This document shows, piece by piece, positions 2,016-31,281 of a DNA stretch of 64,000 nucleotides; position 1 is the first letter of the stretch; every line of letters begins with the position of its first letter. The notes under the pieces are model-generated. The model was given only the letters and a program-made list of their open reading frames with translations. It was not told where the DNA came from and made no database searches. The stretch comes from Crenobacter caeni (GTDB lineage: Bacteria > Pseudomonadota > Gammaproteobacteria > Burkholderiales > Chromobacteriaceae), in the NCBI RefSeq assembly GCF_010435965.1, contig NZ_JAAGAA010000003.1, forward strand, positions 62,001 through 126,000, in the 5' to 3' direction. The position numbers and the translations under genes were made by a program.

Positions 2016-4058
2016 ATGAGTGCCGACCTTGCCCATCAGGCGCCCGCTGCCCAGGACGCCACGCTGAAGAAACTCGAGAAGCTGGGCATCCGCCGCCGCT
2101 TCGACCTCGTGCTGCACCTGCCGTTGCGCTACGAGGACGAGACCCACCTCTACCCGATCGCCGACGCGCCTTACGGCCAGCATGTGCTAGTCGAGGGCGA
2201 GGTCACCTCGTGTGAGGTGCAGTTCAGGCCGCGTCGCCAGCTGGTGGCGCGCCTGCGCGACGGCAGCGCCAGCCTGGTGCTGCGCTTCATCCATTTCTAC
2301 CCCAGCCAGCAAAAGCAGCTTGCCGTCGGCCACCGCGTGCGCGCATTGGGCGAGATCCGCCGCGGTTACTTCGGCGACGAGATGGTCCACCCCAAGCTGC
2401 GCGACGTGCACGAGGGCGACGCGCTGGCCGAGCGGCTGACGCCTATCTACCCGACGGTGAACGGCCTGACCCAGCCGGTGCTCAGGCGCATGATCGCGGC
2501 GGAGCTCAAATCCCTGCCGCTTAACGATACCCTGCCCGACGCGGTACGCGCGCGCTACCGCCTGCTGCCGTTTGCCGACGCGGTACGCCTGTTGCACGCG
2601 CCGCCGCCGGAGCTTGGCGCTTCGGCGCTCGCCGACCCGGCCTTGCCGGCGTGGCAGCGGCTGAAATTCGACGAGCTGCTCGCGCAGCAACTGTCGATGC
2701 GCCTGGCCTACCGTGCGCGCAGACAAGGGCACGCGCCGGCGATTGTCGGCGACGGCGCCTTGCGCGCGCGCCTGGCCCAGAGCTTGCCTTTCGCGCTGAC
2801 CGGCGCGCAGCAACGCGTGCTGGCTGAAATCGAGGTTGACCTTGCCAAGCCGCACCCGATGAACCGGCTGCTGCAGGGGGACGTGGGCAGCGGCAAGACC
2901 ATCGTCGCGGCGATGGCGGCGCTCGCCGCGATCGAGGCGGGCTACCAGGTCGCGCTGATGGCGCCGACCGAGATCCTCGCCGAGCAGCACTACCTCAAAC
3001 TCTCCGCCTGGCTCGCCCCACTGGGCGTCGAGGTGGCGTGGCTGTCCGGCAGCCTGAGGAAGAAGGCGCGCGAGGCGATGGCAGCGCGCATCGCCTCGGG
3101 CGAGGCGCGCCTCGCGGTCGGTACCCACGCGCTCTTCCAGGACGACGTCGCCTTCGAGCGGCTGGGGCTGGTGATCGTCGACGAGCAGCACCGCTTCGGC
3201 GTCGGCCAGCGCCTCGCCTTGCAGGGCAAGGGCGGCTCGCCGCACCAACTGATGATGTCGGCGACGCCGATCCCGCGCACGCTGGCGATGAGCTACTACG
3301 CCGATCTTGACGTGTCGGTGATCGACGAGCTGCCGCCCGGGCGCACGCCGATCGTCACCCGGCTGGTGTCGGCCGAGCGGCGGGGCGAGGTGGTCGGTTT
3401 TGTTAACAAGGTGTGCGGGGAGGGCCGGCAGGCGTACTGGGTGTGCCCGCTGATCGAGGAGAGCGAGACGCTGACCCTGCAGACGGCGGTCGACACCCAT
3501 CAGGAGCTGGGCGCTGCGTTGCCCGAGCGGCGCGTCGCGCTGGTGCACGGGCGGATGAAGGCGGCGGAAAAAGCCGAGGTGATGGCGGCCTTCGCGGCAG
3601 GCAGCATTGACGTGCTGGTCGCGACCACCGTGATCGAGGTCGGCGTCGACGTGCCCAACGCGAGCCTGATGGTGATCGAGCACGCCGAGCGGATGGGGCT
3701 CGCGCAGCTGCACCAGTTGCGCGGACGCGTCGGCCGCGGTGCGGCCAAGAGTAGTTGCGTGCTGCTGTTCGAGCAACCGCTGTCGGACCTTGCCAAGGCG
3801 CGGCTCAGGGTGATCTACGAAAACACCGACGGCTTCGAGATCGCGCGGCAGGACCTGTTGATCCGCGGCCCCGGCGAGTTCCTCGGCGCGCGGCAAAGCG
3901 GTGTGCCGATGCTGCGCTTTGCCGACCTGGAGGCCGACAGCGGGCTGCTTGAAGAGGCGCGCGCGCTGGCGCCGGAGCTGCTGTCCAGGATGCCCGAGGT
4001 CGCACACGCGCACCTGGCGCGCTGGCTCGCCGGGCGCGAGCATTTCCTGAAGGCCTGA
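2016..4058 (+). CDS. recG: ATP-dependent DNA helicase RecG
   Basis: A 680-residue RecG, the superfamily 2 helicase that remodels stalled replication forks and Holliday junctions. An N-terminal wedge/OB domain occupies roughly residues 1-250. Walker A GDVGSGKT is near residue 288, the helicase II motif DEQHRFGVGQR near 389, motif III SATPIPRTLA follows, and the C-terminal QLRGRVGRG motif is intact. Length is normal for the family. The start ATG at 2016 follows the terminator of the previous gene within about 20 bp, so its promoter must overlap that area or transcription must read through. It converges with the minus-strand phosphate genes. Confidence 0.96.
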   Translation: MSADLAHQAPAAQDATLKKLEKLGIRRRFDLVLHLPLRYEDETHLYPIADAPYGQHVLVEGEVTSCEVQFRPRRQLVARLRDGSASLVLRFIHFYPSQQKQLAVGHRVRALGEIRRGYFGDEMVHPKLRDVHEGDALAERLTPIYPTVNGLTQPVLRRMIAAELKSLPLNDTLPDAVRARYRLLPFADAVRLLHAPPPELGASALADPALPAWQRLKFDELLAQQLSMRLAYRARRQGHAPAIVGDGALRARLAQSLPFALTGAQQRVLAEIEVDLAKPHPMNRLLQGDVGSGKTIVAAMAALAAIEAGYQVALMAPTEILAEQHYLKLSAWLAPLGVEVAWLSGSLRKKAREAMAARIASGEARLAVGTHALFQDDVAFERLGLVIVDEQHRFGVGQRLALQGKGGSPHQLMMSATPIPRTLAMSYYADLDVSVIDELPPGRTPIVTRLVSAERRGEVVGFVNKVCGEGRQAYWVCPLIEESETLTLQTAVDTHQELGAALPERRVALVHGRMKAAEKAEVMAAFAAGSIDVLVATTVIEVGVDVPNASLMVIEHAERMGLAQLHQLRGRVGRGAAKSSCVLLFEQPLSDLAKARLRVIYENTDGFEIARQDLLIRGPGEFLGARQSGVPMLRFADLEADSGLLEEARALAPELLSRMPEVAHAHLARWLAGREHFLKA

Positions 4059-4067
4059 ACGACGGGC

Positions 4068-4097
4068 AAAAAAAGGCCCCGACTGAGGGGTCGGGGC
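4068..4097 (-). terminator. Strong intrinsic terminator of the small RNA, also downstream of pitA
   Basis: A perfect 8-bp stem (4076-4083 with 4090-4097) has a 6-base loop and, read on the minus strand, seven T. It is oriented for the sRNA and for read-through from pitA. It cannot serve recG in the same way because the plus strand lacks a T tract after the stem. Confidence 0.85.
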
Positions 4098-4144
4098 GAA
4101 TGGGATATTGCTGCAAACAACAAAGGAGAAACCATGATGAAGCG
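4068..4144 (-). ncRNA. Predicted FNR-dependent small RNA (AniS/FnrS-like logic)
   Basis: No protein gene lies between recG and the PiT gene, but the minus strand shows a complete small-RNA unit. A class II FNR promoter (4151-4192) sets the start near 4144. The roughly 77-nt transcript has a single-stranded 5' segment containing GGUUUCUCCUUUG, complementary to a strong Shine-Dalgarno, and just before it CAUCAU, complementary to a start codon. It ends in a GC hairpin (4076-4097) followed by seven U. This architecture is known for Neisseria AniS/FnrS, Hfq-dependent sRNAs made under oxygen limitation. Homology to those RNAs is inferred from architecture, not from alignment. On the plus strand the same bases mimic a ribosome site and tiny reading frame, as expected for an anti-SD seed. 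Confidence 0.7.
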
Positions 4145-4150
4145 GGATGG

Positions 4151-4192
4151 ATGTTAGCGCGTCATCCTGGCGGCCTTGTTGATCCAGATCAA
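4151..4192 (-). promoter_or_regulatory. FNR box plus -10 element (class II promoter of the small RNA)
   Basis: TTGAT-CCAG-ATCAA at 4179-4192 is a perfect match to the FNR/ANR consensus TTGAT-N4-ATCAA. Read on the minus strand, 22 bases separate it from TAACAT (4156-4151), a 4/6 match to the -10 consensus. With the start at 4144 the box centre falls at -41.5, the exact class II FNR geometry. The box lies in a convergent intergenic region, where no protein gene could use it. Confidence 0.75.
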
Positions 4193-4223
4193 TTTTTCAT
4201 TCGTTAGAGATTATCTACTCTCT

Positions 4224-5687
4224 TTATCCGAAGAAGCGGGCGCCGGCGATATAGAGGCCGGCGGCCAGCCCCATCGCCACCGGCAACGTGAACAGCCACG
4301 CGAGCAGGATGTTGCGGATGGTCGACATCTGCAGGCCCGAGCGGTTGGCGAGCATGGTGCCGGCGACCGCGCTGGAGAGCACCTGCGTGGTCGACACCGG
4401 GAAGCCGAACACGCTGGCCGCGCCGATGGCGGTGGCCGCGGTCAGCTGCGCCGACACGCCCTGCGCGTACGTCATGTCCTTCTTGCCGATGCCTTCGCCG
4501 ACGGTGCGCACCACGCGCTTCCAGCCGACCATGGTGCCGATGCCCAAAGCGAGCGCGACGGCGACGATCACCCAGGTCGGCGCGTACTCGGTGGTCGCGG
4601 TCAGATCCTTGCGCAGGCCGGTCAGGTGCGCCTTCTCGGCTGCGGTCAGCCCCGGCAGCTTCAGCGCGATCTTCGCGGCGTCGTCCAGGCACAGAAGGTC
4701 GGTACGCACGTCCCAGCGCTGCTGCTTGTCGAGCTTGTGGTAGTCGGTGGTGTCCAGCAGGCCGGCCAGCACGTTGGCCGTTTCGGCGGTGGCCAGCGGG
4801 TGGCACTGGAAGCGGCCGGTGTCCTTCTTCGGCGGCATCTTGGCGATCAGCGCGGAGAGTTCGGGCGCCTTGCGCTCGTAGAACTGCTGCAGGTGGACGG
4901 CGGCGTCGCGGGTGCGCTCGATCTGGTAAGGCGTGCTGTCCAGGTTGAGCACGAACTTGGCCGGCACGATGCCGATCAGCACCAGCATGATCAGGCCGAC
5001 GCCCTTCTGGCCGTCGTTCGAGCCGTGCGCGAAGCTCACCCCCATCGCCGAGACGATCAGCATGAAGCGCGACCAGAACGGCGGGTGCTTGCGCCCCTCG
5101 ATCTGCTGGCGCTGGAACGGCGTGCGGTGGATGTTGCTGTGCGCCCGAAAGCGCAGCAGCGCAAGCAGGATCAGCGCGGCGACCACCCCGCCCAACAGCG
5201 GCGAGAGCAGCAGCGAGGTGCCGACGTCGAGCGCCTTGCCCCAGTTGATGCCCTGGGTCAGCGGCGCGTTGTTCAGCCAGGCGTTGGCGACGCCGACGCC
5301 CAGCAGCGCACCGATCAGGGTGTGGCTGCTGGACGCGGGCAGGCCGAAGTACCAGGTGCCGAGGTTCCACACGATGGCGGCGGTCAATAGCGCAAATACC
5401 ATCGCCATGCCGCGTGCGCTGTTGATCGAGACCAGGAGGTCGACCGGCAGCAGGTGGACGATCGCGTAGGCGACGGCGAGGCCGCCGGCCATCACGCCCA
5501 GGAAGTTGAAGATGCCCGACGCGACGACCGCGAGCTGCGGTTTCATCGACTGGGTGTAGATGACGGTGGCCACCGCGTTGGCGGTGTCGTGAAAACCGTT
5601 GATGAATTCGAAGGCGAGGACCAGCCCCAGGGAGAGCACGAGGGTGATCGCGAGGGCGGGGCTAAGGTCGCTGAACAGTTCAAGCAT
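4224..5687 (-). CDS. pitA: PitA-type inorganic phosphate transporter
   Basis: A 487-residue PiT-family (PF01384) integral membrane transporter importing metal phosphate with protons. It closely follows the layout of E. coli PitA (about 499 residues): INGFHDTANAVATVIYTQSM in the first repeat, GTWYFGLPASSSHTLIGA, a central hydrophilic loop, then SFAHGSNDGQKG and GFPVSTTQVLSSA in the second repeat. The start ATG at 5687 has only a weak ribosome site. A consensus-like promoter lies at 5719-5747. Its neighbours are a second PiT gene and the pst operon, all on the minus strand, making a phosphate-uptake block. Confidence 0.93.
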   Translation of the reverse strand: MLELFSDLSPALAITLVLSLGLVLAFEFINGFHDTANAVATVIYTQSMKPQLAVVASGIFNFLGVMAGGLAVAYAIVHLLPVDLLVSINSARGMAMVFALLTAAIVWNLGTWYFGLPASSSHTLIGALLGVGVANAWLNNAPLTQGINWGKALDVGTSLLLSPLLGGVVAALILLALLRFRAHSNIHRTPFQRQQIEGRKHPPFWSRFMLIVSAMGVSFAHGSNDGQKGVGLIMLVLIGIVPAKFVLNLDSTPYQIERTRDAAVHLQQFYERKAPELSALIAKMPPKKDTGRFQCHPLATAETANVLAGLLDTTDYHKLDKQQRWDVRTDLLCLDDAAKIALKLPGLTAAEKAHLTGLRKDLTATTEYAPTWVIVAVALALGIGTMVGWKRVVRTVGEGIGKKDMTYAQGVSAQLTAATAIGAASVFGFPVSTTQVLSSAVAGTMLANRSGLQMSTIRNILLAWLFTLPVAMGLAAGLYIAGARFFG

Positions 5688-31143: not shown

Positions 31144-31152
31144 CCGGCGCAT

Positions 31153-31211
31153 TCCGGGGAGTGCTGCAAGGCTTGCGCCCCAGGCCCGGATCGCTTCAAC
31201 CGCACTCGCCC
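31153..31211 (+). promoter_or_regulatory. SAH riboswitch aptamer
   Basis: Matches the SAH riboswitch class known upstream of ahcY in beta- and gammaproteobacteria. P1 is formed by TCCGGG (31153-31158) and CCCGGA (31185-31190). The conserved GGAGTGCTGCAAG and CCAGGC core is present. GAGTGC (31159-31164) pairs with GCACTC (31202-31207) as the pseudoknot. The region 31212-31281 holds alternative hairpins and the ribosome site and acts as the probable expression platform. Confidence 0.88.
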
Positions 31212-31281
31212 ATGCAACCCGTGCCGGACACGGGATGACGGGTGAGCCGCATCCCGCCCGGCCTTCGTGAAGGACTACACG

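Follow-up and report, generated by a model that had tools for sequence, protein, structure and literature searches.

What does a perfect FNR-type box control when it lies between the convergent genes recG and pit? A locus of Crenobacter caeni raises this question, and we analysed it within a stretch of 64,000 nucleotides (hereafter the window), for which a reading made from the sequence alone had proposed an FNR-controlled small RNA (sRNA) with an anti-Shine-Dalgarno seed. Judging from the comparative data described below, we consider it very probable that the locus carries the gene of a trans-acting sRNA of ~77 nt, which would be activated by Fnr at low oxygen.

The recG-pit Locus in C. caeni

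The features of the locus, in order of coordinates, are the following.

2016 to 4058, plus strand: recG, the convergent neighbour (NCBIfam RecG, above cut-off)
4068 to 4144, minus strand: putative small RNA gene, ~77 nt, with a predicted start at 4144 (covariance model, orthologues, and fold; transcription predicted from these)
4076 to 4097, minus strand: intrinsic terminator stem-loop, with its U run at 4074-4068 (terminator scan and stem covariation)
4108 to 4123, minus strand: small hairpin UUGUUG-UUUG-CAGCAA, which most copies of the recG-pit type have (folds of the aligned RNAs)
4121 to 4133, minus strand: anti-Shine-Dalgarno seed GGUUUCUCCUUUG, inside the near-invariant part 4144-4107 (alignment and pairing probability)
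4151 to 4156, minus strand: -10 element TAACAT, TAATAT in most orthologues (sequence; orthologues share 84% pairwise identity in this region)
4179 to 4192, minus strand: FNR-type box TTGATCTGGATCAA, perfect consensus, centred at -41.5 relative to the predicted start (orthologous boxes conserved)
4224 to 5687, minus strand: pit-type phosphate transporter gene, upstream of the sRNA on the same strand (NCBIfam PitA, 635 bits, which falls under the strict cut-off of 800)

The elements described in the sequence-only reading all lie where it had placed them, with recG and pit converging around the sRNA. The box is the only perfect TTGAT-N4-ATCAA in the window (shuffled sequences lead one to expect 0.01) and one of nine in the 3.4 Mb of the genome, and TAACAT stands exactly 22 bp downstream of it, giving the -41.5 geometry for a start at 4144. 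Near the predicted 5' end, GGTTTCTCCTTTG occupies 4133-4121 on the minus strand. The terminator consists of an 8-bp stem (7 G-C) with a loop of 6, followed by C and seven T, and is the only terminator-like site within 3900-4400 (0.3 in shuffles). The predicted 77-nt RNA starts with CGCUUC, and its folding energy of -22.1 kcal/mol is lower than that of any of 200 shuffles (z -3.9); the fold has no 5' stem-loop. A SAH riboswitch aptamer (RF01057, 43.6 bits) was also found in the window, at 31150-31214 (plus strand).

A sigma-70 scan of 3900-4400 returned no promoter, the -10 being weak and the -35 missing, as is predicted for an activator-dependent promoter of class II. The window's -10 alone, without comparative data, would prove little, and its weakness and the missing -35 would fit a chance alignment of a palindrome, an A+T-rich hexamer, and the recG/pit terminator. 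We give practically no credence to such a coincidence, which is refuted by comparison: at 26 distinct loci every element is conserved, and the spacers have diverged.

Conservation of the RNA

A covariance model (R1) of the 77-nt RNA (4144-4068, minus strand) was built from 23 copies. The window copy, which belongs to the training set, scored 92.1 bits (E 6.8e-22). The covariance and nucleotide searches of relatives suggested by the sequence-only reading were productive: R1 found strong orthologues (≥73 bits) in 27 genomes, including the window's own, from 6 of the 10 genera of the family (Crenobacter, Craterilacuibacter, Aquitalea, Chromobacterium, Paludibacterium, and relatives), and a DNA search for the 125-bp segment gave matches in 24 of 61 genomes, that of the window among them. 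A second tier of R1 matches, mostly shorter copies, scored ~48-64 bits, and among 300 genomes sampled across the order no match outside the family rose above 33 bits. Crenobacter intestini, placed by NCBI in the Neisseriaceae (Neisseriales), is the nearest named relative, and its copy (L003/G002) is 95% identical over 137 bases; two Craterilacuibacter genomes fall in the same genus group of the genome collection. A scan of the whole collection for the box together with the seed returned the family and scattered hits in unrelated phyla, which we take for chance. The seed was not found in a search of viral contigs, and a phage origin of the sRNA was rejected on this ground.

Within the alignment, the 5' part GCTTCATCATGGTTTCTCCTTTGTTGTTTGC, which includes the anti-Shine-Dalgarno seed, hardly changes between copies, and the terminator is variable. 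The variation of the terminator preserves its stem: all six counted pairs changed on both sides, and 91.5% of the stem cells are paired vs. 77.7% in shuffles, none of 500 shuffles reaching the observed value. As judged from these aligned sequences, comparison shows the seed, the promoter elements, and the terminator to be under selection on the minus strand.

The reading would have been in difficulty had the box or the hairpin been lost in relatives that conserve the flanking genes. Instead, the RNA and its seed are kept in all 26 distinct upstream regions together with the terminator and the FNR-type box, also at the four loci that lack recG or pit as a neighbour. Both genes flank 22 of the 26 loci; recG is not adjacent in L007, L011, and L012 (a kup-like gene is present in L011 and L012), and an aquaporin-like gene replaces pit in L013. 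Because the RNA and box persist beside these other neighbours, the sRNA is not merely the end of recG or pit. The same observations bear on the proposal that the minus-strand terminator belongs to pit and that the RNA arises by processing of the pit 3' UTR, with no gene of its own. It is true that pit ends 80 bp upstream of the sRNA start on the same strand, that the scan shows no other terminator-like site between the two, and that read-through could raise the level of the RNA; nevertheless, a conserved -10 and an FNR-type box precede the RNA in 26 of 26 loci, L013 included with its different upstream neighbour, and we consider a pit 3' UTR quite improbable.

Still less probable, in our judgment, is a short protein-coding gene in the conserved stretch. 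Read on the plus strand, AAAGGAG-N5-ATGATGAAG looks like an excellent ribosome-binding site with its start codon, opening a frame of 7-10 codons in most species, but the codons that follow ATGAAG are variable, the spacing between the Shine-Dalgarno (SD) sequence and ATG differs by one base in L004/L005, and ATA replaces ATG in the Chromobacterium copies. On the minus strand, the frame MVSPLLFAAI inside the RNA is conserved, but in most species it meets no stop codon before the terminator, and its 9-nt leader is devoid of an SD sequence. Variation is no greater at third codon positions than at the other two, and the promoter and U run indicate the minus strand. The short-frame readings of both strands were therefore rejected on codon variation, start/stop, and SD evidence.

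Conservation of the FNR-type Box and Promoter Layout

Each upstream region was scored for TTGAT-N4-ATCAA, a box being counted with at most two mismatches at the expected place. The best box of each of the 26 distinct regions is within this limit, compared with 0.4% of shuffled regions. These regions are from related species and do not represent independent trials, but the flanks have diverged nearly to saturation, and they are the relevant control: the ten specified box positions are 89% pairwise identical between species, against 34% for the 18 bases before, 31% for the 18 bases after, and 37% for the box's own N4.

The class II arrangement proposed from the window sequence holds for C. caeni and C. 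intestini, the only two species with the box centre at -41.5, but it is not the norm of the family: in the other 24 regions the centre lies at -60.5 to -63.5, that is, a class I layout near -61.5. The class I promoters have a -35-like TTG with the conserved -10 region, and a -35 is missing from both class II promoters; each arrangement is what its class predicts. Some two helical turns separate the two box positions, which is explained most simply by a deletion in the Crenobacter lineage, and we infer that this deletion shifted the box from class I to class II on the same face of the helix.

Regulators Encoded in the Genome

The window's genome encodes Hfq and a genuine Fnr (NF008365, 251 bits vs. 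a cut-off of 228), with CSNC-X5-C and a further Cys, making four cysteines, and an ETVSR recognition helix of the ExxSR type. It also encodes a second protein of the CRP/FNR type (L168) with an ETFSR helix, likewise ExxSR-type, and no Fe-S cysteines, which passes no curated cut-off. L168 could compete with Fnr for the box, perhaps as part of a response to nitric oxide. The box might then be read mainly by a Dnr-like, nitric-oxide responsive activator, and a real sRNA would signal denitrification and not the lack of oxygen itself. To our knowledge, boxes for Fnr and Dnr are indistinguishable by sequence, which counts for this view. The genuine Fnr and the occurrence of several perfect TTGAT-N4-ATCAA boxes speak against it, and we regard it as unlikely, though less so than the other alternatives. 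With Fnr as the preferred activator, the interpretation as an FNR-controlled sRNA is supported, its transcription, oxygen response, and Hfq binding being predicted from conserved features. Perfect FNR boxes also lie ~60 bp upstream of a nitronate-monooxygenase-like gene (L166, C32:29285) and of a gene for an ABC-transporter substrate-binding-like protein (L164, C30:162755) in the same genome.

Sibling and Tandem Copies

A sibling sRNA with the same seed is found at C31:40909-40974 of the window's own genome (L002/L127), where it has good -35/-10 elements and no FNR box; siblings of this kind are also present in three congeners (L026-L028). The sibling adjoins a ProQ/FinO-domain gene (PF04352), and a glutathione peroxidase-like ORF lies on the other side of L002. 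Tandem copies occur between recG and pit in G005 (L006, 1501-1576 and ~1674-1757) and in G014 (C35:22964 and 23137); the second tandem-copy type carries UUCUCCUUUUUG and lacks a recognisable FNR box. A genus of the Chromobacterium type (g8; L022, L024, L025, and L121) has a further copy at another locus, adjoining GNAT and periplasmic-binding-protein-like genes, with a TTGTTTCAAATCAA-like box at -41.5; these copies have lost the opposite-strand ATG and kept the seed.

Putting promoter and sibling together, we tentatively suggest an undescribed sRNA family in which oxygen control was kept while the promoter was rebuilt in Crenobacter (a shift of the box from the class I to the class II position, over about two helical turns, with loss of the -35), and in which the congeneric same-seed sibling beside the ProQ/FinO-domain gene, being devoid of an FNR box, would provide an oxygen-independent supply, so that one anti-Shine-Dalgarno seed would answer to two inputs. 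This wider picture is possible, though we would not call it probable.

Proposed Mechanism and Candidate Targets

From the conserved sequence elements, we propose that reduced Fnr would bind the box and recruit RNA polymerase. In C. caeni it would act from -41.5 (class II); elsewhere in the family it would act from about -61.5 (class I) in combination with a -35 element. The transcript would begin near 4144 and end at the hairpin and U run. Its single-stranded 5' end GCUUCAUCAUGGUUUCUCCUUUGUUG would, with Hfq, pair with target mRNAs at their ribosome-binding sites and start codons and so repress translation. The 5' end of the sRNA is perfectly complementary to CAACAAAGGAGAAACCATGATGAAG, which comprises an entire ribosome-binding site and start codon, and the CUCC core of the sRNA is predicted to be unpaired with a mean probability of 0.88 in the window RNA and of 0.59-0.96 over all aligned copies. 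An intrinsic terminator with a U run and an accessible seed are both features of Hfq-dependent trans-acting sRNAs, and both are found here; the sRNA probably acts in trans with Hfq.

The best candidate target is prpE, in Crenobacter only, where a near-exact site has one mismatch in 18 in the window's genome and two mismatches in C. intestini (predicted duplexes of -33.8 and -31.0 kcal/mol in these two Crenobacter genomes). As a conserved target prpE was rejected, the mean duplex energy being -21.6 kcal/mol in species that have the RNA vs. -20.9 kcal/mol in species that lack it. No conserved target was found among the species compared, and we claim no regulon.

Comparison with Known sRNAs

Short RNAs of the Betaproteobacteria toxic sRNA family RF02278 (the Burkholderia ncS/bdhR1 set, with the related Bordetella S17) have a C/U-rich anti-Shine-Dalgarno sequence near the 5' end and a strong terminator (PMC5688073, PMC11722255), and the Crenobacter sRNA resembles them in these respects. 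It scores 27.4 bits (E 0.0014) against a gathering score of 50, and the RF02278 5' consensus UGUCUCCUCCA...CUCCUUUGGUGGAUU, present in the L031-L060 matches, is absent from the sRNA alignment (A1). Membership was rejected on this low score, true RNAs of the RF02278 type (UGUCUCCUCCA...) being separate genes in the same genomes. Such S17/bdhR1-like genes are L047 (C22:40189) and one at C31:30969 in the window's own genome, and L046 (C45:39344) in C. intestini; those in the window's genus score below the Rfam gathering score.

The Neisseria sRNAs NmsRA/B (NgncR_162/163 in the gonococcus) are also anti-Shine-Dalgarno RNAs, which down-regulate metabolic genes (PMC5362039). They are two sibling RNAs with two anti-SD motifs each, whereas the Crenobacter sRNA has a single motif and an FNR-type box. 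In other families of the order, L123, L124, and L125 are NmsR-like double anti-SD RNAs (GCUUC..GUUUCUCCU..UUUCUCCUUUG), possibly distant relatives of the Crenobacter sRNA.

Enterobacterial FnrS is induced anaerobically by FNR from a class II site at -41.5 (PMC3032703), a layout shared with the Crenobacter sRNA. Neither the window nor the sRNA region has a match to this family in Rfam, even at E 10, and identity with it was rejected because no match was listed. The sRNA has no entry in the RNA-family catalogue, and our search of the open-access literature turned up no description of it or of any FNR-controlled sRNA of Chromobacterium or its relatives. If expressed as predicted, it would add a family of oxygen-responsive riboregulators in Neisseriales outside Neisseria, provide natural promoter variants in which class I and class II FNR sites drive the same RNA, indicate that FNR-to-sRNA wiring can persist through a change of promoter layout, and offer a defined gene for work on Chromobacterium, Aquitalea, and Crenobacter.

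The nearest parallel in control is AniS/FnrS of Neisseria. AniS is reportedly under FNR control (Fantappie 2011). Gonococcal FnrS is FNR-activated from a class II box at -41.5 and has an intrinsic terminator (PMC3032703). Judging from the published descriptions, the Crenobacter sRNA appears to share with them the order Neisseriales, an upstream FNR box in a position suited to activation, at the class II distance of -41.5, and a terminator. Unlike gonococcal FnrS, which is 108 nt long, starts with AUG, forms a 5' stem-loop, and lies beside bfrA/bfrB (PMC3032703), it has 77 nt, a CGCUUC start, no 5' stem-loop, and a recG-pit locus. In a pattern search for Neisseria FnrS (FNR box, -10, and ATG), the recurrent matches inspected lead into protein-coding genes. 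The resemblance is one of control logic only, an analogy, and the Crenobacter sRNA as predicted would be a further case of an established logic, that of an FNR-controlled, probably Hfq-dependent anti-Shine-Dalgarno sRNA, and not a new kind of system.
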